From Myxococcales bacterium (GTDB lineage Bacteria > Myxococcota_A > Polyangia > Haliangiales > Haliangiaceae), in contig JAQBQE010000002.1 in the NCBI GenBank assembly GCA_028287135.1, positions 1 to 64,000 of the forward strand: a stretch of 64,000 nucleotides of DNA, written 5' to 3'. Made by a program: the position numbers and the translations under genes. Positions 2,640 to 46,945 of this stretch are shown piece after piece; within the stretch, counting starts at the first letter, position 1, and the number at the start of each line of letters is the position of its first letter. The notes beneath the pieces were generated by a model. That model saw nothing but the letters and a program-made list of their open reading frames with translations, did no database searches and had not been told where the DNA came from.

Positions 2640-4817
2640 ATGCCCAACGAGTCTCTGCGCTACGACGACGCGATCGTCAGAAAGTTCGTGACCGCGACGA
2701 TCGTGTGGGGCGCCGTCGGGATGCTGGTAGGCCTGTGGTGCGCCCTCCAGCTCGCGTTGCCGAGCCTCAACGTCGGCCCCTACTTCACGTTCGGTCGCCT
2801 TCGTCCGCTGCACACGAACGCGGTGATCTTCGCGTTCGCGGGCAATGGCATCTTCGCCGCTGTCTACTACTCGTCGCAGCGCCTGCTCAAGGCTCGGCCT
2901 CTCGCCCGGCTCTCGAGCCTCCACTTCTGGGGCTGGCAGGCGATCATCGTCGCCGCGGCCATCACCCTGCCGCTCGGGTTCACCCAGGGCAAGGAGTACG
3001 CCGAGCTCGAGTGGCCCATCGATATCGCGATCGCGATCATCTGGGTCACGTTCGGCGTGAACTTCTTCGCGATGGTGCGCAACCGGCGCGAGAAGCACCT
3101 CTACGTCGCGCTGTGGTTCTACATCGCGACGATCGTCACGGTCGCGATCCTCCACATCTTCAACAACCTCGTGGTCCCGGCGGGACTGTTCAAGAGCTAC
3201 TCGATCTACGCGGGCGTCGAGGACGCGTTCATGCAGTGGTGGTACGGCCACAACGCGGTCGCGTTCATCCTGACGACGCCGTTCCTCGGCCTCATGTACT
3301 ACTTCCTGCCGAAGGCGGCGGAGCGGCCGGTGTTCAGCTACCGGCTGTCGATCCTTCACTTCTGGTCGCTGGTGTTCATCTACATCTGGGCCGGCCCGCA
3401 TCACCTCCACTACACGGCGTTGCCCCAGTGGGCGGCGACCCTCGGCATGATCTTCAGCGTAATGCTGTGGATGCCGTCATGGGGCGGCATGATCAACGGC
3501 CTGCTCACGCTGCGCGGCGCGTGGAACAAGGTCGCCGAGGATCCCGTCCTCAAGTTCTTCGTCGTCGCCATCACGTTCTACGGCATGGCCACCTTCGAGG
3601 GCCCGATGCTCTCGATCAAGAGCGTCAACGCGCTCTCGCACTACACCGACTGGAACATCGCCCACGTCCACGGCGGCGCTCTCGGCTGGGTCGGTTTCAT
3701 GGTGTTCGGGATGATCTACTGGCTCGTCCCGCGCCTGTACCAGACGACCCTGCACTCGAAGAAGCTCGCGACCACGCACTTCTGGGTCGCGACGATCGGC
3801 ATCGTGCTCTACGTCGTCTCGATGTGGGCGGCCGGGATCACGCAGGGCCTGATGTGGCGCGCCTTCGACGAGACCGGACGGCTCCAGTATCCCGACTTTC
3901 TGCAGACCGTGACGCGGCTCGTGCCGATGTACTGGGTCCGTGCGCTCGGCGGCTCGCTCTACATCGCGGGGCTTCTGATCGGCGCGTACAACATCTTCAA
4001 GACCTGGCAGTCGCGCCCGAACGTGTACGCCGACATCGAGGTCGAAGCACCGCCGATGGTCCGCGACGCGCGTGTGATGGCCAGGGAAGCGCGCGTGCTC
4101 GAGCGAGCCGCGCATGCGCCGGAGCACTGGCACCGCCGCTGGGAGGGGCTGCCTGCGCTGTTCACGACCCTGACGGTCCTCGCCGTGCTCGTCGCCTCGG
4201 CCTTCGAGATCGTCCCGACCTTTCTGATCGCCGACAACGTGCCGCGGATCAAGACGGTCAAGCCGTACACGCCCCTCGAGCTCTACGGTCGCGATATCTA
4301 CCTCGCCGAGGGTTGTTACAACTGCCACTCGCAGATGGTCCGTCCCTTCATCGACGAAACCGTTCGCTACGGCCAGAACGGTCAGCCGGCGGAGTACTCG
4401 AAGGCCGGCGAGTTCGTCTACGACCATCCTCATCAGTGGGGCAGCAAGCGGACCGGGCCTGACCTCGCGCGCGAGGGCGGTCGGCGTGACGAGCTATGGC
4501 ACCTCCGTCACTTCGAGAATCCGCGTGCCACGTCGCCGGGCTCGGTGATGCCGGCGTACCCGCACCTGCTCGAGGACACGATCGCATGGAACGTGATCCA
4601 GGACCGCGTCGACGCGATGGCGATGCTCAACGTCCCCTATGACGCTCGTGCACTGGCGAGCGCCGAGGACATGGCTCGCGAGCAGGCGAGGGCGGTCGCT
4701 GCACGCTTGGTCGCGCAGGGTGGTCCCGACATCGCCGACAAGGACGTGATCGCCTTGATCGCCTACATGCAGCGACTCGGCGTCGATATCCGCCTGTCGC
4801 AAGGAGGTACCCGATGA
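2640..4817 (+). CDS. ccoNO: cbb3-type cytochrome c oxidase, fused subunits I and II (CcoN-CcoO)
   Basis: Terminal oxidase reducing O2 to water with high affinity. Residues 1-460 or so are the CcoN core, with haem and copper histidines in HTNAVIFAF, WYGHNAV, AGPHHLHYTALP and HVHGGALGW. A linker leads to a membrane anchor (about 505-530) and the CcoO cytochrome c domain with its haem site CYNCHSQMVRP (C559, C562, H563) and a probable Met ligand in SVMPAYP. CcoN and CcoO are usually separate, but fusions are known in several bacteria. ATG 2640 is chosen because the sigma-54 promoter would start transcription just before it. The stop overlaps ccoQ by 4 bp (ATGA). Confidence 0.93.
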   Translation: MPNESLRYDDAIVRKFVTATIVWGAVGMLVGLWCALQLALPSLNVGPYFTFGRLRPLHTNAVIFAFAGNGIFAAVYYSSQRLLKARPLARLSSLHFWGWQAIIVAAAITLPLGFTQGKEYAELEWPIDIAIAIIWVTFGVNFFAMVRNRREKHLYVALWFYIATIVTVAILHIFNNLVVPAGLFKSYSIYAGVEDAFMQWWYGHNAVAFILTTPFLGLMYYFLPKAAERPVFSYRLSILHFWSLVFIYIWAGPHHLHYTALPQWAATLGMIFSVMLWMPSWGGMINGLLTLRGAWNKVAEDPVLKFFVVAITFYGMATFEGPMLSIKSVNALSHYTDWNIAHVHGGALGWVGFMVFGMIYWLVPRLYQTTLHSKKLATTHFWVATIGIVLYVVSMWAAGITQGLMWRAFDETGRLQYPDFLQTVTRLVPMYWVRALGGSLYIAGLLIGAYNIFKTWQSRPNVYADIEVEAPPMVRDARVMAREARVLERAAHAPEHWHRRWEGLPALFTTLTVLAVLVASAFEIVPTFLIADNVPRIKTVKPYTPLELYGRDIYLAEGCYNCHSQMVRPFIDETVRYGQNGQPAEYSKAGEFVYDHPHQWGSKRTGPDLAREGGRRDELWHLRHFENPRATSPGSVMPAYPHLLEDTIAWNVIQDRVDAMAMLNVPYDARALASAEDMAREQARAVAARLVAQGGPDIADKDVIALIAYMQRLGVDIRLSQGGTR

Positions 4818-5005
4818 TCCGTCTGTCCGAGCTGGTCTCCGCGTTGACGCCCGCGCAGTACGCAGAGCTTGCGCTCGTGCTGTTCGTGCTGGTGTTCATC
4901 GGTGTCGCGATCCGTCATGGCGGCAAGCGCCGCGCCATCGAGCACGCGTCGTGTGCGCAGTTGCCGCTCGCCGATGATGCGTGCCCGCGCGGAGGTCTGT
5001 CATGA
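4814..5005 (+). CDS. ccoQ: cbb3 oxidase small subunit CcoQ-like
   Basis: A 63-residue protein with one membrane helix (about 18-34, ELALVLFVLVFIGVAI) followed by basic residues, in the CcoQ position between ccoO and ccoP. CcoQ stabilises the oxidase complex. A strong ribosome site (AAGGAGG, 4801-4807) lies before the ATG, and the gene overlaps both neighbours by 4 bp. The sequence is too short for identification by residues alone, so the call rests on size, helix and place. Confidence 0.8.
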   Translation: MIRLSELVSALTPAQYAELALVLFVLVFIGVAIRHGGKRRAIEHASCAQLPLADDACPRGGLS

Positions 5006-5595
5006 ACACGCCCGGCGCGGATCTCGAGACAGGCGCGCGGGTGCTGCCGCACGACTACGACGGCATCCGCGAGTACGACAATCCGATGCCCGGCTGGTGG
5101 AAGTCGATCTTCATCGGCTCGGTCATGTTCGCGGGGTTCTATGGTCTGTACTTCCACCTCATGGACTGGGGGCACACGGACGCCCAGGCGTACCGGCTGG
5201 AGCTCGCGGACTACGACAGCAAGAAGGAGGTGCGAGCACGTGCCGAGGCGGCGAACGTCTCGGAGAATGCGCTCGCGAGCGGCGCGCGGGATCCGAGGAT
5301 GCTCGAGCACGGTGCTGCGGTGTTCAAGACCAAGTGCGTCACCTGTCACGCCGACGACGGCCGTGGGTTGATCGGGCCGAACCTGACGGATCTCCGTCAG
5401 CTTCACGGCGCGACGCGGATGGATCTGTACGCGACGATCACGAACGGCGTCCCGGGGACCGCGATGCTCGCATGGGGCGAGCAGCTCCCGCAGACCGACA
5501 TCCTCGCTGTTGCGGCGTTCGTCACGACGCTGCGTGGTCAGAACATCGCAGGCAAGGCACCCGAAGGCGTCGCCGTGGAGCGCTTCGCGCCATGA
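5002..5595 (+). CDS. ccoP: cbb3 oxidase cytochrome c subunit CcoP, monohaem form
   Basis: Membrane-anchored cytochrome c that feeds electrons to the oxidase. The 197-residue protein begins with the CcoP-like YDGIREYDNPMPGWW segment and one membrane helix (about 34-52), then a single cytochrome c domain with CVTCH (C112, C115, H116) and a likely Met ligand in GTAML. Classical CcoP carries two CXXCH haems; only one exists here. ATG 5002 has GGAGG (4991-4995) in front and overlaps the ccoQ stop. The upstream in-frame GTG at 4981 lies inside ccoQ and is less likely. Confidence 0.9.
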   Translation: MNTPGADLETGARVLPHDYDGIREYDNPMPGWWKSIFIGSVMFAGFYGLYFHLMDWGHTDAQAYRLELADYDSKKEVRARAEAANVSENALASGARDPRMLEHGAAVFKTKCVTCHADDGRGLIGPNLTDLRQLHGATRMDLYATITNGVPGTAMLAWGEQLPQTDILAVAAFVTTLRGQNIAGKAPEGVAVERFAP

Positions 5596-5602
5596 GGCTC
5601 GC

Positions 5603-6997
5603 ATGACGCCACCTCTTGCGACCGAGCGCGTGCTGTCCACCCTGAATCAGGATGGCTCGCGCCACTGGATCCATCCCCGCCTCGCGCAGGGACGGTTTCT
5701 GCGCGGACGCAAGATCGTCGGCTATGCGCTGATCGCGATGTTTCTCGCCCTTCCGTTCGTCCACATCGGGGGCCGTCCGGCGCTGCTGCTCGATGTGCTG
5801 ACCCAGGAGCTCAGCGTGTTCGGCGCGGTGTTCAAGGCCAGCGACGGTGTCCTGTTGATGCTGCTCGGCCTGACGATCGTCGTCGCCGTGTTCCTGGTCA
5901 CCGCACTGTTCGGCCGTGTGTGGTGCGGGTGGGGCTGTCCGCAGACGGTCTACCTCGAGCATGTGTTTCGACCGATCGAGCGCTGGCTCGAAGGGTCACC
6001 ATCGCAGCGTCGCAAGCTCGATGCGAGCTCCCGGCCCCATGGCCGCCGCGTGCTCAAGTGGGTGATCTACGCGGCGCTGTCGTTCGTGCTGTCGAACGTG
6101 TTCCTCGCGTACTTCGTCGGCGTCGACCGCCTCGCGCTGTGGGTGCTGCACTCCCCGCTGCAGCACCCGGGCGGCTTCATGGTGGTCGCCGGGGTCGCGG
6201 CGCTGATGCTGTTCGACTTCGGATACTTTCGCGAGCAGACCTGCATCGTTGCGTGCCCATACGGACGGTTGCAGTCGGTGCTGCTCGACCGTCAATCGTT
6301 GATCATCGGCTACGACCAGCGACGCGGCGAGCCGCGCGCCAAGCCGAAGAAGCACCTGCCGGTGATCGGCGAGCGTGGCGACTGCATCGATTGCAGCGCG
6401 TGCGTCGCGGTGTGCCCCACCGGGATCGATATCCGCGAGGGCCTGCAGATGGAGTGCATCGGCTGCGCGCAGTGCATCGATGCCTGCGACGCGGTGATGG
6501 ATCGGGTCGGCAAGCCGCGGAACCTGATCGGGTACACGTCGCAGGACGAGCTGGCAGGCAAGCCACGACGTCTGCTCCGCGCGCGCACGATCATCTATCC
6601 CGTGCTGCTCGCGGCGATCGCGGGGCTGTTCGTGTGGTCACTCGGAGGGCGGGTGACGAGCAACGTGCTCGTCGAGCGCAGCCAGGGCCCGAGCTTCGTC
6701 GAGCTCCCGGACGGTACGATCTCGGCCCAGGCGCGGATCCGGATCGCCAACGACACCGATGGTGACCGCAGCTATGTCGTCGATCTGTCGCGCGCCCCGG
6801 ATGCGAAGCTGCGCACGCCGCAGCTCACCTGGCAGCTCCACCCCGGGAAGTCGCTCTCGATCCCGCTGTTCGTCGATGTGCCGAGGGCGTCGTTTGTCCT
6901 CGGGAAGCGCACGATCCACCTCCGGATCCAGGACGACCTTGGCTTCGCACGCGTCCTCGTGGTCACGCTGCTCGGCCCCGAAGGAAGTGCCCGTTGA
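5603..6997 (+). CDS. ccoG: Cytochrome c oxidase accessory protein CcoG (polyferredoxin, RdxA/FixG family)
   Basis: Membrane iron-sulfur protein implicated in copper reduction during cbb3 assembly. The 464-residue protein has membrane helices, the family signature CGWGCPQTVYLEHVFRP, a CIVACPYGR motif, and two ferredoxin-type clusters (CIDCSACVAVCP and CIGCAQCIDACD). A C-terminal Ig-like periplasmic domain (about 360-464, FixG C-terminal type) follows a last helix. ATG 5603 lies 7 bp after the ccoP stop, and the TGA stop overlaps the TTG start of ccoH. Confidence 0.93.
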   Translation: MTPPLATERVLSTLNQDGSRHWIHPRLAQGRFLRGRKIVGYALIAMFLALPFVHIGGRPALLLDVLTQELSVFGAVFKASDGVLLMLLGLTIVVAVFLVTALFGRVWCGWGCPQTVYLEHVFRPIERWLEGSPSQRRKLDASSRPHGRRVLKWVIYAALSFVLSNVFLAYFVGVDRLALWVLHSPLQHPGGFMVVAGVAALMLFDFGYFREQTCIVACPYGRLQSVLLDRQSLIIGYDQRRGEPRAKPKKHLPVIGERGDCIDCSACVAVCPTGIDIREGLQMECIGCAQCIDACDAVMDRVGKPRNLIGYTSQDELAGKPRRLLRARTIIYPVLLAAIAGLFVWSLGGRVTSNVLVERSQGPSFVELPDGTISAQARIRIANDTDGDRSYVVDLSRAPDAKLRTPQLTWQLHPGKSLSIPLFVDVPRASFVLGKRTIHLRIQDDLGFARVLVVTLLGPEGSAR

Positions 6998-7446
6998 AGG
7001 CTGCAACGAAGTGGACCGCGGCGATCGTCGGGTTGCTCGGGGGCAACGTCCTCGCCATGGTGGCGCTCGCGGTCAGCGCGCAGCACGGCACCGCGCAAGT
7101 GATCCCCGGCTACTACCAGAAGGCCGTGCACTACGACGACGCGCTCGATGAAGCGGCGCGCAGCAGCGCGCTCGGATGGTCCGCCGAGGTCTCGGTGGTC
7201 GCAGGGACGGTCGAGGTCCGCGTCCGCGATCGCGCGGGCGCGATGCTCACAGGTGCACGCGTGCACGTCGGTGGCTACCAGCGGTCGCGAGCGGCCGACC
7301 GCTTCGAGCTCGAGCTGGTTGCCGCCGGCGATGGCGTTTATCGCGGTGTGCTGCACGGCAGCCGACTCGGATGGCACGATCTGACGATCGCGGTCGAGCA
7401 CGGAGGCCGCCACTTCACCGAACGCGCGACGACGGAGGCTCGATGA
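6994..7446 (+). CDS. ccoH: cbb3 assembly protein CcoH/FixH
   Basis: Membrane-anchored accessory protein needed for cbb3 oxidase maturation. The 150 residues comprise an N-terminal helix (about 8-27), then a periplasmic FixH-type domain beginning with the characteristic PGYYQKAVHYDD segment. A TTG start at 6994 is inferred from the overlapping ccoG stop and AAGGAAG at 6981. It sits between ccoG and the SafE-like gene, the standard order for cbb3 accessory genes. Confidence 0.85.
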   Translation: MKAATKWTAAIVGLLGGNVLAMVALAVSAQHGTAQVIPGYYQKAVHYDDALDEAARSSALGWSAEVSVVAGTVEVRVRDRAGAMLTGARVHVGGYQRSRAADRFELELVAAGDGVYRGVLHGSRLGWHDLTIAVEHGGRHFTERATTEAR

Positions 7447-8135
7447 TCGCGCTCCTCCCAGGCATCCTGGTCGCGAGCCTCGTAGGTAGTGTGCACTGCA
7501 TCGCGATGTGCGGGCCGCTCGTCGGTCTGCACGGGACCGGGCGCACGCTACGGCTGGCGCTCGTCCACGCCCTCGGCCGCCTGACGACGTACGTCAGCCT
7601 CGGTGTCGCCGCGGGCCTCGTCGGAGGCGCGCTCGACATCGCAGGCCGGCTCGGCCAGGTCCAGCACGTCGCTGCGATCGTCGCTGGCGTCGTGATCGTC
7701 GGCTGGGGGCTCTACACGATCGCCGTCGCGCTGGGCTGGCGGCACGAAGCCCACCTCCAGGCGGTGCTGTTCCGGCGCGGGCTCGTCCAGCTCCGTGCGC
7801 GCCGTCCCGCGACACGGGCGTGGCTCGTCGGAGTGCTGACCGGCCTCCTGCCTTGCGGCTGGCTGTGGGCGTTCGTCGTCTCGGCGGCGGGAACCGGCAG
7901 CCCGGTCGGCGGCGGTGTGGTGATGGCGGTGTTCTGGCTGGGGACGGTCCCGGCGATGACCGGCGTGCTGACCGCCGGCAGGCCCGTGATCGGCTGGCTG
8001 CAGCGGCGCCTGCCGATCGTCACCGCGCTGGTGCTGATCTCGCTCGGTCTCGGCACGCTCGCCTGGCGATGGTCCGATGCCGGTGTGCAGGGCGTCGCTC
8101 GCCCGTCGTGTCATGACACGGCAGGTGGACGATGA
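7443..8135 (+). CDS. Sulfite exporter TauE/SafE-family membrane protein of the cco operon
   Basis: Polytopic membrane protein of 230 residues. The N-terminus has GSVHCIAMCGPLVGLHGTG, and a second segment is GLLPCGWLWAFVVSAAGTG; paired Cys/His motifs of this kind mark the SafE-like proteins that accompany ccoGHIS. Such proteins (for example in Rhodobacter) are linked to copper supply for cbb3 assembly, but a substrate cannot be shown from sequence. It starts at ATG 7443 with a 4-bp overlap with ccoH, and its stop overlaps ccoI by 4 bp. Confidence 0.85.
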   Translation: MIALLPGILVASLVGSVHCIAMCGPLVGLHGTGRTLRLALVHALGRLTTYVSLGVAAGLVGGALDIAGRLGQVQHVAAIVAGVVIVGWGLYTIAVALGWRHEAHLQAVLFRRGLVQLRARRPATRAWLVGVLTGLLPCGWLWAFVVSAAGTGSPVGGGVVMAVFWLGTVPAMTGVLTAGRPVIGWLQRRLPIVTALVLISLGLGTLAWRWSDAGVQGVARPSCHDTAGGR

Positions 8136-42443: not shown

Positions 42444-42471
42444 TTGTGGCGGCCGCGCGCAGCCCTACGTT
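42444..42471 (+). promoter_or_regulatory. Candidate sigma-70-type promoter, leaderless
   Basis: TTGTGG (42444-42449), 16-bp spacer, TACGTT (42466-42471), then 7 nt to ATG 42479. Confidence 0.45.
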
Positions 42472-42478
42472 GATCCGA

Positions 42479-43297
42479 ATGCAACGCCCACTCGCCTTGT
42501 TCCTCCTGCTCACAGCGGCTGCGTGCGGCGATGACGGGTCCTCGGGCCCAGATGCCCAGGGCCCCGATGGAAACAATCATCCGCCCAACCCCTCCGGTCT
42601 CGGACCGGCGCCCGTCGCGCTGGGGTCGAGCACCGACACGACCGCCGCAGGCAGCTACGCGATCATCGCCAAGACCGGCATCACGAACGTCACGGGCTCG
42701 CTGATCACCGGCGGAAACCTCGGTCTCAGTCCTGCCGCCGCGAGCTTCGTCACCGGGTTCGCACCGGTCGCAGACGCCAGCGGGATGTTCGCGACGTCGG
42801 TCGCGGTCGCGCCACCGGGGAAGATCTACGCAAGCAACTACACCGCGCCGACTCCGTCGAACCTGACCACCGCCGTGCTCGCGATGCAGACCGCGTACAC
42901 CGATGCTGCAGGCCGCAGCGACCCGGACTTCGTGAACTTCCACAGTGGCGACCTCGGCGGGCAGACGCTGGCGCCCGGCGTCTACAAGTTCGGAACCGGC
43001 GTCACGATCCCGACCGACGTTACGTTCTCTGGCGGAGCGAACGACACGTGGATCCTGCAGGTCAGCAACGATGTCGACCTGTCCGCGTCGAAGCGCGTGA
43101 TCCTCGCAGGTGGTGCCGACGCGAAGAACATCGTCTGGCAGGTCGCCGGCAAGGTGACGGTCCACGCCAATGCTCACCTCGAGGGCGTGGTCCTGTGCAA
43201 AACGGGAATCACCCTGCAGACGATGGCGACCGTTCGGGGGCGACTGTTCGCACAGACTCTCGTCGCGATCGACAACAATGCGATCACGGTTCCGTAG
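42479..43297 (+). CDS. Ice-binding-like (DUF3494) lipoprotein
   Basis: A 272-residue protein from ATG 42479 with lipobox LTAAACGDD. After a short acidic/Pro linker the DUF3494 beta-solenoid begins (about 55-272): YAIIAKTGITNVTGSLITGG, then DLGGQTLAPGVYKFGTGVTI, DTWILQVSNDVDL and VVLCKTGITLQ, all recognisable family blocks. Members bind ice or act as adhesins, and many bacterial versions have no shown antifreeze activity. It lies 28 bp upstream of the selenoprotein gene but probably has its own promoter. Confidence 0.85.
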   Translation: MQRPLALFLLLTAAACGDDGSSGPDAQGPDGNNHPPNPSGLGPAPVALGSSTDTTAAGSYAIIAKTGITNVTGSLITGGNLGLSPAAASFVTGFAPVADASGMFATSVAVAPPGKIYASNYTAPTPSNLTTAVLAMQTAYTDAAGRSDPDFVNFHSGDLGGQTLAPGVYKFGTGVTIPTDVTFSGGANDTWILQVSNDVDLSASKRVILAGGADAKNIVWQVAGKVTVHANAHLEGVVLCKTGITLQTMATVRGRLFAQTLVAIDNNAITVP

Positions 43298-43325: not shown

Positions 43326-45155
43326 ATGCAGTCCCGCCTCGCCGCGTTCGTCGTCATCGCCGCCGCTCTGCTCGGGGTCGATCCACGCGTCGTGCGCGCC
43401 GGCGGTGCTTGAGCGGGTTGAAGCAATCCAAACCTTCCGGTCGGGAAGGTCGATAACGAGACACTGACGCCAGGCCAGGTCGTGCTGAACCTGACGTGGC
43501 TCGGTACGTACGTGCAGACCCAGCACGACGATCACGAGGATGTGGTCGGGCAGGGCGAGATCGATCTCGTCCACGATCAGAATCTGGTGATCAGCGAGGC
43601 ACGGCTCGCGATCGACATCGGGCTGACGCGGCGATTCGGTGTGTCGATGATGGTCCCGGCCCGGTTCGTTGCGACGTCGATCCGCTACCTCGATACCGGC
43701 GGCGCCGAGGTCGAGCTGGTCCGCCCGGGGATCCATCACCGCAACGAGAGGGTCACGGGACTCGGCGATCCGCTGGTGCTCGGATCCTTCGCGGGACATC
43801 TCGCCGGGTGGCGGCTGACCGCACGCGCGGGGATGTCACTGCCGCTGGGTCGCACCGAGGAGAATCCGTTCGTGCTCGGGGACGTCGGGCTGGCGCACCA
43901 GCACATCCAGCTCGGCACGGGCACGGTGAACCCGGTGTTCGCGGCGGAGGCCGCACGGTCGGCAGGTGCCTGGCGGTTCGGCGTGTTCGCGCTGACCCAG
44001 CAGGTCGTCTACGAGAATGCGAAGGGGTACCAGGCGGGCGATCGCTACGCGGCAGGTCTCGCGCTGCGCCGTCGGATGGGACCACGCTGGAGCTTGCGCA
44101 CCGGCCTCGACGTGCAGGCCGAGACCGCCGAGCGCTGGGACGGGATCGTCCACACGGATGACGGCAATCGCGGTCGGCTCGACCTGATCCTCGGAGCGGG
44201 CGCGTCGTGGTCGGCGACTCCGCGGCTCACGCTCGATCTCGCGGTCAAGATCCCGCTGGTGACCTACGCCGTGGGCGGCCAGCTCGAGATGCCCGCGATC
44301 GTCGAGCTCGGTGCCGCGTGGTCGTTCGGCGGGCCTGCGGTCGAGCCCGACGAGCATGGCGAGGAGCACGAGCACGGGGACCAGCACGACCATGGCGACG
44401 AGCACGGCCACGCCGACGAGCACGACGCTCCGAAGGTCGACACCGCCGGTCTCGACGTCGCCGATCTCGGTGCGCCGGGCGAAGCGGTCGCGCTCGTGCC
44501 GGTGCCGGGCAAGCTGACGATCTTCGACTTCTGGGCACCGTGGTGCGAGCCGTGCAAGATCCTCGAGCCCGCCCTGGTCGAGATCGCACGCGCGCATCCC
44601 GACACCGTCGCGATCCGCCGGATCGATGTCGTCGACTGGGACAGTGCGGCGGCGGCGAAGTACCTGACGCCGGGTGGCTTCAACCTGCCGCACCTCAAGA
44701 TCTACGACGCGCGCGGGCAGCTCGTGCTCGAGGAGAGCAGCGCGACCGGCAAGCTCGAGGCGCTGATCGAGCGCGTCCGCGGGCTCGCGGCACCACGCCC
44801 CACGGCGGCTCCGCCGTCGCCCGTCAGGCCACCAGCACAGCCCTCGACGCCGCCGGTTTCGCGCACGCCGGCACCACCGCGCGCGCTGGCACCGATCGCG
44901 ATCAAGGTGACCGCGAACGGCTTCGAGCCGGCGAACGTCACGGTCCCCCGCGGCACGCCGGTCACCCTTCGCTTCGAGCGCACGACGGAGCGCACGTGCG
45001 CGACGGAGGTCGTGCTCGATCTCGACGGCAAGAAGATCGTCAAGGATCTCCCGCTCCACCAGCACGTCGACCTCACGCTGACGTTCGCGCAGGCCGGCAC
45101 GGTCAGCTATGCCTGCGCGATGAACATGGTGCGTGGGACGATCACCGTTCGGTGA
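43326..45155 (+). CDS. Probable selenoprotein: outer-membrane barrel-thioredoxin-cupredoxin fusion with UxxU motif
   Basis: Read from ATG 43326, the frame encodes a signal peptide (MQSRLAAFVVIAAALLG, ending VRAGGA), then TGA-GCG-GGT-TGA (43410-43421), then continues uninterrupted in the same frame to 45155. Reading both TGA as selenocysteine gives 609 residues with U29-A-G-U32 at the mature N-terminus, followed by SNPNLPVGK. Domains: a beta-barrel of about 270 residues; a His/Asp/Glu-rich linker (about 340-368) that could bind metal; a thioredoxin domain with WCEPCK (C407, C410); a Pro-rich linker; and a C-terminal cupredoxin-type domain (about 525-609) with ERTCATEV and YACAMNM as likely copper ligands. 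If only the downstream GTG 43482 were used, the protein would lack any export signal. A SECIS-like hairpin follows the second TGA. It is likely an outer-membrane redox or copper-handling protein. Confidence 0.7.
43432..43450 (+). promoter_or_regulatory. Bacterial SECIS-like hairpin
   Basis: ACCTTCC (43432-43438) pairs perfectly with GGAAGGT (43444-43450) around the 5-base loop GGTCG. The loop GGUC resembles the E. coli fdhF SECIS apical loop, where G and U contact SelB. The loop is 17 nt after the second TGA and 26 nt after the first, both within the spacing known for bacterial SECIS elements. Confidence 0.65.
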
Positions 45156-45436: not shown

Positions 45437-46810
45437 TCAGTCGGTGCTGGGGATCTGCGCGTTCGGATTCTCGAGCCGGCGGTACAGCGAGCGGCGATCG
45501 ATCCCGAGCACGCGGGCGGTGTGGGTCTTGTTGCCGCGAAGGCTCGCGAGCACCTGCCGGACGTAGCGGCGCTCCATCTCGGCCAGCGTGATCATCTCGG
45601 CCGGGGCGTCGGTCGTGATCTCGAGACGGGCCGACTGGTACTGCAGCACCTTCGGCGGGAGGTGCTCGGCGCGGATCTCCTTGCCGTCGGAGATCGCGAC
45701 AGCGCGCTCGATGTAGTTCTCGAGCTCGCGGACGTTGCCGGGCCAGTTGTAATCCATCAGCTTGCGGGCTGCGTCGGAGGTGACCTCGAGCTTGGGCTTG
45801 CCACTGCGGGTGGCGATCTTCTCGAGGACATGATTCGCGAGCAGCAGCACGTCGCCGGCGCGCGCGCGCAGCGGCGGGACCTCGATCGCCACGACGTTGA
45901 TCCGGTGGAACAGATCCTCGCGGAACCGCTTCTCGTCGACCTCGCTCTCGAGGTCGCGGTTGGTCGCGGTGACCACCCGGGCCTCGAACGGCACCTCGGT
46001 GTCGCCACCGACCGGGCGGACGGTTCGCTGCTGCAGCACGCGGAGCAGCTTGACCTGCATCTCGAGCGGCATCTCGCCGACCTCGTCGAGGAAGATCGTG
46101 CCTGCGCCGGCCTGGACGAACAGACCCGACCGCGAGGTCTTGGCATCGGTGAAGGCGCCGCGAACGTGACCGAACAGCTCGCTCTCGAGCAGCGGGGCCG
46201 GCATCGCAGCACAGTTGATCGCGACGAACGGGGCCGCCTTGCGCGACGACAGCTCGTGGAGCGAGCGTGCGACGAGCTCCTTGCCCGTGCCGCTCTCGCC
46301 GGTGATCAGCACGGTCGCATCGCTATCGGCGACGCGCCGGATCATGTCGGTCATCTCGCGAAGGGCCGAGCTGTTGCCGGCAAATCCCTTGATCGGGAGC
46401 TCCCGGTCAGCGACCGCACGAAGGCGGCGGACCTCGTTCTTCACATTGAGGTGCTCGAGCGCGCGGCGCACCGCGACCTCGAGGGCATCGGTCTTCACCG
46501 GCTTCGCGAGGAAGTCGTACGCACCGGCGCGAATGGCGGCCACGGCAGTGTCGAGATCGCCGATGCCGGTGAGGACGATCGGCAGCAGATCGGGATGGCG
46601 CTCGTGGAGAGCGGCGCACAGCTCGACGCCCGTCATCCCGGGCATCTGGACATCCGTGATGACGACGTCGACCGTCAAGGTGCGGAGCTTGGTCAGCGCC
46701 TCGCGGCCCGACGCCGCCGTCTCGACGGTGTAGCCGCGCCGCTGCATCGCCTCGCAGAGGAGGGCGGCCGTATCTTCTTCGTCGTCGACAATCAGGATCG
46801 ATCCAGCCAT
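45437..46810 (-). CDS. NtrC-family sigma-54-dependent response regulator
   Basis: A 457-residue protein from ATG 46810. Receiver with D53 (VVITDVQMPGMTG) and Lys in FLAKPV; AAA+ domain with GESGTGKE (171-178) and the sigma-54 contact loop GAFTDA (218-223) where GAFTGA is canonical; Walker B FLDEVGEMP; arginine-finger region; C-terminal Fis-type HTH (HTARVLGIDRRSLYRRL). The Asp substitution in the loop is found in some myxobacterial activators, so activity cannot be excluded. No kinase is adjacent. Confidence 0.9.
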   Translation of the reverse strand: MAGSILIVDDEEDTAALLCEAMQRRGYTVETAASGREALTKLRTLTVDVVITDVQMPGMTGVELCAALHERHPDLLPIVLTGIGDLDTAVAAIRAGAYDFLAKPVKTDALEVAVRRALEHLNVKNEVRRLRAVADRELPIKGFAGNSSALREMTDMIRRVADSDATVLITGESGTGKELVARSLHELSSRKAAPFVAINCAAMPAPLLESELFGHVRGAFTDAKTSRSGLFVQAGAGTIFLDEVGEMPLEMQVKLLRVLQQRTVRPVGGDTEVPFEARVVTATNRDLESEVDEKRFREDLFHRINVVAIEVPPLRARAGDVLLLANHVLEKIATRSGKPKLEVTSDAARKLMDYNWPGNVRELENYIERAVAISDGKEIRAEHLPPKVLQYQSARLEITTDAPAEMITLAEMERRYVRQVLASLRGNKTHTARVLGIDRRSLYRRLENPNAQIPSTD

Positions 46811-46945
46811 GCGCGCGCTACCGTACAAGTTTCGTTCCCACCGCTGAAACGACTGGAACCAATCAAATCGCCAGGTTCAGTGATGCGCGCAAGAGCACGT
46901 TAGGGCGCGCGAAATCGCCCACCGTGCGGTATGGGTACACAGCCC

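Follow-up and report, generated by a model that had tools for sequence, protein, structure and literature searches.

Two types that are outer-membrane proteins by name figure among the 119 selenoprotein families or subfamilies in the available text of PMC13188914. The GSU2204/MtrB-PioB-type selenoprotein (NF041027, Table 1 of that paper) is an outer-membrane barrel carrying one Sec. The TonB-dependent receptor of the FCYXU type (NF049945; PMC13188914 Table 1; PMC12013277 Table 3), reported from Desulfosarcina sp. BuS5, is a predicted outer-membrane selenoprotein, also with one Sec, placed in a CxxU motif. A UxxU motif is given in the same text for a Prx-like protein, a metal-binding protein and FmdB; the entry named metal-binding protein/putative mercuric reductase (NF041115, Table 1), which has this motif and mercury in its name, is not listed as a barrel. 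Finally, in the available part of PMC5877670, the porin of the Geobacter ExtI/ExtKL cluster, implicated in selenite/tellurite reduction, is clustered with a selenoprotein gene.

The gene analysed here lies in the window, the whole stretch of 64,000 nucleotides of Myxococcales DNA that was studied. Its predicted product is likewise an outer-membrane barrel with Sec, but it differs from the NF041027 type by its UxxU motif, its PF13557 domain and its thioredoxin partner, and from the NF049945 receptor by its barrel family and its second Sec. In the Geobacter cluster, by comparison, the porin is not itself a selenoprotein, and cytochromes are found instead of a thioredoxin. At E up to 1, the window protein matched neither the NF041027 nor the NF041115 model, and its barrel matched no NCBIfam model. 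The barrel domain is shared with the PF13557 (Phenol_MetA_deg) outer-membrane proteins, but its best stretch in the window protein (residues 128-309) excludes the Sec N-terminus, and at E up to 0.01 the model matches 6 of the 27 aligned relatives. PF13557 is given for none of the 119 families in the available text of PMC13188914. Such a family appeared in none of the titles and abstract beginnings listed for selenoproteins with the MetA-pathway of phenol degradation or Myxococcota, nor did we find an earlier description of a double-Sec barrel family in the parts of the literature available, although published tables may already list it. The double-Sec barrel thus appears to be a new selenoprotein family. 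Because gene calling ends at UGA, such a family readily escapes notice.

Structure of the gene in the window

The features of the gene and of its two neighbours are as follows.

42446-43297, + strand: ice-binding-like neighbour (PF11999, 222.5 bits)
43326..45155, + strand: whole gene, 609 codons including two TGA codons read as Sec in the proposed translation, then the stop
43326..43400, + strand: predicted signal peptide, about residues 1-25; homologues have similar N-termini
43350..44321, + strand: match to the family profile, 487.6 bits, the window's own protein being one of the profile's 27 rows
43410..43412, + strand: TGA1, putative Sec29, first U of UAGU (from translation and comparison of homologues)
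43419..43421, + strand: TGA2, putative Sec32, second U of UAGU (from translation and comparison of homologues)
43432..43450, + strand: SECIS-like hairpin, 7 bp stem, loop GGTCG at 43439-43443
43707..44252, + strand: best stretch of PF13557 Phenol_MetA_deg, an outer-membrane beta-barrel family
44349..44426, + strand: linker rich in His, Asp and Glu, residues 342-367, a possible metal-binding stretch; relatives have similar linkers
44511..44708, + strand: thioredoxin domain with WCEPC, 40.2 bits (cut-off 23.5)
44889..45149, + strand: cupredoxin-like domain, 44.5 bits (cut-off 27)
45437-46828, - strand: adjoining gene for a sigma-54 response regulator

A single frame runs from the ATG at 43326 to the final stop, a TGA at 45153-45155, and TGA1 and TGA2, separated by GCG GGT, are the only stops inside it. 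The earlier note had described a signal peptide and a signal-less barrel lying in one frame and split by TGA-GCG-GGT-TGA, and both the coordinates and the translation agree with this. Reading through the two codons gives, in order, a hydrophobic signal-like stretch, GGA-U-AG-U-SNPNLPVG, the barrel, the His-rich linker, the thioredoxin and the cupredoxin-like domain, that is, the exported-type protein with U-A-G-U before SNPNLP that had been proposed. The fusion of the barrel to thioredoxin and cupredoxin domains, also claimed there, holds as well, all three being over their Pfam cut-offs (40.8 bits for the barrel, against a gathering cut-off of 22). Cleavage of the signal was placed by eye after ...VRA. 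A later in-frame start, GTG 43482, opens 557 codons, and ordinary gene calling probably yields just the post-stop part, for example from this codon.

Concerning the structure of the barrel, a profile search of PDB sequences gave no relative at E up to 0.1, and a two-row prediction produced a strand-rich model of low confidence (mean pLDDT 47.2). With such a poor model, the topology of the barrel and the side of the membrane on which its N-terminus lies are inferred.

The two TGA codons in homologues

When 56 relatives were searched with read-through of stops, 23 gave matches, and 21 of these have TGA at one or both sites. With a profile of 27 rows, matches were obtained in 68 of the 377 genomes of the phylum. 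A pattern search of genome contigs gave one barrel relative, L038 (apparently the same contig as L012), together with three matches confined to the thioredoxin part. Plasmids, searched at the protein level, gave no match. Duplicates (L038, L042-L049, L111) were removed before counting, and L063, whose N-terminus is cut, was omitted.

The N-terminus could be read in 82 loci, of which 64 have UxxU, 5 CxxU (L013, L015, L027, L052, L110) and 8 CxxC (L050, L061, L064, L100-L104). The 5 others (L029, L033-L036) form a paralogue with one Cys, which keeps the second position only (QATC/RATC). No UxxC form was found among the 82 loci. With the paralogue set aside, the first site holds U 64 times and C 13 times in 77 loci; the second, over all 82, holds U 69 times and C 13 times. 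The homologues thus have Cys at both Sec sites in 8 loci and at the first in 5, the Cys counterparts that the earlier note had asked to be looked for; against this stands the paralogue, with Cys at the second site only. The 69 Sec-type loci are spread over 67 genomes, which bear 18 different family codes within the phylum. These counts leave aside the weak matches L032 and L105-L109, whose N-termini are not aligned by the profile; near the presumed mature N-terminus, L032 has CASC and L108 has CGAC, and no such Cys pair is present there in L105-L107 and L109.

Every stop at the two sites over the 82 loci is a TGA (133 of 133), a figure that rests on the stops listed inside matches, as the motif finder sought U or C at both sites. 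In both read-through searches, no stop codon other than TGA was listed inside a match. The signal-like N-terminal sequence and the SNPNLP-like sequence on either side of the TGA codons are conserved as well. Since the same two sites are used in 64 of 82 homologous loci, the shared TGA pair is more than chance. Among the loci found, UxxU predominates and the Cys pair (8 of 82) is exceptional, a balance that may be biased by a search profile made up mainly of Sec forms. In L077, L078, L084 and L089, the motif immediately follows AFA, and the mature chain might begin with Sec in these loci; residue +1 is perhaps Sec in some members of the family, as in ...AFA/UPGU.

The hairpin downstream of the TGA codons

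The sequence ACCTTCC-GGTCG-GGAAGGT occurs once in the window, and its loop starts 17 nt past TGA2, the position and sequence that had been claimed for a SECIS-like element. The loop had also been likened to that of fdhF, a resemblance that we presume. As the loop lies 26 nt past TGA1, one hairpin could serve both TGA codons.

When the 27-nt segments at this place were folded, an apical loop was found in 69 of 69 Sec-type loci versus 7 of the 13 others. Stems with at least 5 uninterrupted pairs were present in 63/69 and 5/13 respectively, and a G among the first two loop bases in 69/69 and 9/13. Of the six Sec-type loci with shorter runs, L011, L012, L014, L015 and L018 fold with a single bulged base; the sixth is L066. 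Stems and loops vary by lineage; examples are CTCCCGGTCGGG or CTGCCGGTCGGC, CTCCCGGGTGGAG, and CTCCAGGTTGGAG. The near-identical CxxC loci L100, L101 and L104 also fold well at the hairpin place.

The genetic code leaves the third bases of the Leu and Gly codons unconstrained, and across the 31 LPVG-containing Sec-type loci these two bases change in a compensatory way: they are C-G in 18, G-C in 10, U-G in 2 and G-U in 1, always pairable. The covariation score of these 31 rows, which are 19 distinct, related rows, was 0.288, whereas shuffles gave 0.145, none of the 500 being as high; when the position was slid, it did not exceed 0.094. Paired cells amounted to 96.5%, again with 0 of 500 shuffles as high. 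Among the five covariation measures, the number of pairs changed on both sides (75/500 shuffles) and the number of pair types (105/500) were unremarkable. With the amino acids fixed, the stability of the hairpin was only moderately unusual, 19 of the 64 UxxU loci reaching p up to 0.05, with a mean z of -1.51. Given that this synonymous-codon test is weak, and that 7 of 13 non-Sec loci also form a loop, the argument for a SECIS is carried by covariation and stem length. Backed by the covariation, the proposal that the hairpin downstream of both TGA codons acts as a SECIS is strongly supported at the sequence level.

Selenocysteine machinery

The genome of the window was searched for the genes of Sec synthesis and insertion, whose absence, by the earlier note, would refute the selenoprotein reading. 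Three were present: a tRNA-Sec gene (selC; 73.6 bits, called tRNA-SeC with anticodon tca by ARAGORN), selA (525.3 bits) and a selD of Sec type (L134, G000:C66:77-922), with an in-frame TGA in the active-site region (GGGUAAKL). The fourth, selB, was not found over cut-off in this draft genome, which is 59.5% complete. Of the two outcomes that were to refute the reading, neither an absence of the Sec machinery nor homologues devoid of Cys/Sec at the sites was observed.

Over the 56 relatives, 38 have selB over cut-off. In the 21 Sec-type genomes of this set (own included), tRNA-Sec exceeded the gathering score in 18, selB the cut-off in 16 and selA in 19; selB was missing over cut-off in 4 of the other 20 besides the window's genome. 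For the 46 further Sec-type genomes, the numbers were 39 for tRNA-Sec and 40 for selA. For tRNA-Sec, the gathering score draws no sharp line: it is passed by 5 of the 14 named controls, while selA matched E. coli alone among them. At 55 bits or more, a tRNA-Sec was present in 57 of 67 Sec-type genomes versus 0 of 8 CxxC genomes, a line picked after the scores had been seen (at Rfam's 47 bits, 57/67 versus 1/8), and the Fisher value of 2.6e-6 for this contrast is nominal and ignores relatedness. For selA, the ratios were 59/67 and 1/8. The 10 Sec-type genomes without a 55-bit match include G033, which is 98% complete and has SelB and SelA over cut-off all the same. Among the CxxC genomes, G307 has selA and an 84-nt tRNA match of 50.5 bits, above the Rfam gathering score; the other seven have neither selA nor tRNA-Sec over cut-off.

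One genome, G159, brings these genes together: a fused barrel-thioredoxin gene, tRNA-Sec and selA are successive on one strand (L119:4669-7801, -), the barrel at 6821-7801 (frame open to 6281), the tRNA-Sec at 6020-6119 and the selA match at 4669-5889 (357.9 bits to PF03841).

Thioredoxin partner and gene neighbourhoods

Partner genes were counted by profile rather than from the list of the gene caller, which had chosen wrong frames (around L129 and L130, for example). Over the 82 loci, the linked-thioredoxin profile matches a domain of the barrel protein itself in 24, including 5 paralogues, and a gene immediately upstream on the same strand in 45, which makes 69 altogether. No partner was found in the remaining 13, including L020 and L022, which run up to contig ends. 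In 21 large neighbourhoods, the thioredoxin is fused in 5, and in 9 it is encoded upstream with a match that extends into an N-terminal HMA (heavy-metal-associated) part; in the CxxC loci L129-L131, the upstream match covers the thioredoxin part only, and 4 neighbourhoods are without thioredoxin. The Pfam HMA scan, which left out the partner genes of L116, L120 and L128, was over cut-off for L115, L124, L125 and L126, and below it for L118 and L127.

Some neighbourhoods hold further genes. In G043 (L116:4687-8199, +), the order is MerR, a MerT-HMA fusion, an HMA-thioredoxin lipoprotein and the UxxU barrel. MerR and MerT were recognised in at least one of the 21 large neighbourhoods (L116), among the genes listed, of which selected ones only were named by Pfam. 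At L114, a separate cupredoxin gene lies downstream of the barrel. In the CxxU genome G336, a lipoprotein-like gene of AhpC/TSA type directly follows the barrel (L121:7501-8184, +). It scores 21.8 bits, below the cut-off of 26, and contains an in-frame TGA, in FWUSLCK, followed by a predicted hairpin, CCACC-GGTCA-GGTGG; it is a candidate second selenoprotein.

Reading of the gene and proposed mechanism

Taken together, the comparisons make it very probable that the gene is a real double selenoprotein gene, whose predicted product is an exported barrel protein. Both TGA codons would be read as Sec by SelB and Sec-tRNA, with the help of one hairpin, located in the coding sequence shortly downstream and at a distance suited to both codons. 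The product would be exported, and its signal peptide cut a few residues before the first Sec, or right at it, so that the mature protein would start with the UxxU site, followed by SNPNLP. The remainder would fold as an outer-membrane beta-barrel, as family and signal evidence suggest, with the UxxU N-terminus most likely on the periplasmic side. From its near-constant linkage, we consider it rather probable that the thioredoxin, either fused or encoded just upstream, keeps the Sec pair reduced. The reduced pair might then bind or reduce a substrate dealt with at the barrel, either a soft metal or metalloid or a thiol. That the Sec pair has a role with metals is suggested by the HMA domains, the His-rich linker, the cupredoxin and one MerR-MerT neighbourhood, and we regard it as possible, short of probable. 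A broader picture, in which many lineages of one phylum would share an outer-membrane module whose N-terminal diselenol site is recharged by a dedicated thioredoxin and serves to move or detoxify soft metals and metalloids, is put forward tentatively. In such a family, paired Sec would be placed at the outer membrane across a large phylum, and with the double-Sec barrel a new way of dealing with metals or redox chemistry at the cell surface may come to light.

Among other explanations, the one that survives best accepts a selenoprotein, but assigns the Sec pair to the assembly or gating of the barrel, with the thioredoxin assisting its folding and without a metal substrate. The N-terminal CXXC of MtrB may serve such a purpose. 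The available text of PMC6831781 and PMC7198977 speaks of haem motifs only, with no such role for an N-terminal CXXC. The location of the site, at the mature N-terminus of a barrel, fits assembly or gating, and so do the neighbourhoods, the thioredoxin being the regular partner, with HMA and cupredoxin present in some loci and absent from others, and the CxxC neighbourhoods L129-L131 matching the partner profile in its thioredoxin part only. On the other hand, a structural bond would, in our judgement, hardly need two Sec, and the HMA domains, the His-rich linkers and the MerR-MerT neighbourhood point to metals. We give this explanation an appreciable, if minor, share of the probability.

A selenoprotein acting as an outer-membrane peroxide or disulfide reductase, with the thioredoxin as electron donor and no part in transport, seems unlikely. 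UxxU is among the motifs of a Prx-like selenoprotein (PMC13188914, Table 1), and in G336 the barrel is adjoined by the AhpC/TSA-like gene with its own TGA (FWUSLC). However, PF13557 is by its fold a channel or transporter-like family, and the thioredoxin domain does not contain the UxxU motif.

Reading of the TGA codons as Cys, Trp or another standard amino acid, through a changed code or a suppressor, is very improbable. Loading of tRNA-Sec with Cys is known elsewhere, and some relatives have Cys at the sites. Yet the window gene itself ends in TGA, its genome has its own tRNA-Sec, selA and Sec-type selD, Sec-type genes accompany the Sec machinery, and the SECIS-type hairpin covaries; on the gene's own TGA stop, the machinery and the covarying hairpin, we rejected a changed code. 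As to a decayed or mis-sequenced gene, whose TGA codons would be accidental and which would yield a leaderless barrel alone, from a start farther down, GTG 43482 does exist and draft assemblies do contain errors, but the comparison refutes it, leaving it a negligible probability unless the homologues shared the same error, since both TGA codons recur at the same sites in 64 of 82 loci with TGA as the sole stop there (133/133), the signal-like and SNPNLP-like flanks are conserved, Cys replaces Sec elsewhere, and the product of the later start would have no signal peptide.

Exchange of Sec and Cys

The very probable double selenoprotein occurs naturally in UxxU, CxxU and CxxC forms that share their thioredoxin partner, which makes the question of why Sec is kept over Cys directly testable. 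Their relationships were followed on a quick tree of the barrels, from whose alignment the motif was excluded. At site 2 (U/C), at least 3 changes are needed on the tree, and at site 1 at least 7, with the paralogue counted as a third state. Sec and Cys have therefore replaced each other on more than one occasion, a conclusion that is safest for the first site. If starred branches only are counted, CxxU requires at least 3 changes and CxxC just 1. L050 (CAGC, family f14) is placed beside UxxU rows, apart from the other CxxC rows, with a support of 89 on a branch that is not starred. The one-Cys paralogue is a clade of 5 loci, all of family f1. One of them, L034 (G000:C3:250354-251319), is a second barrel-thioredoxin gene on the contig of the window; it reads QATCSNPG, the first redox position being lost and one Cys left.
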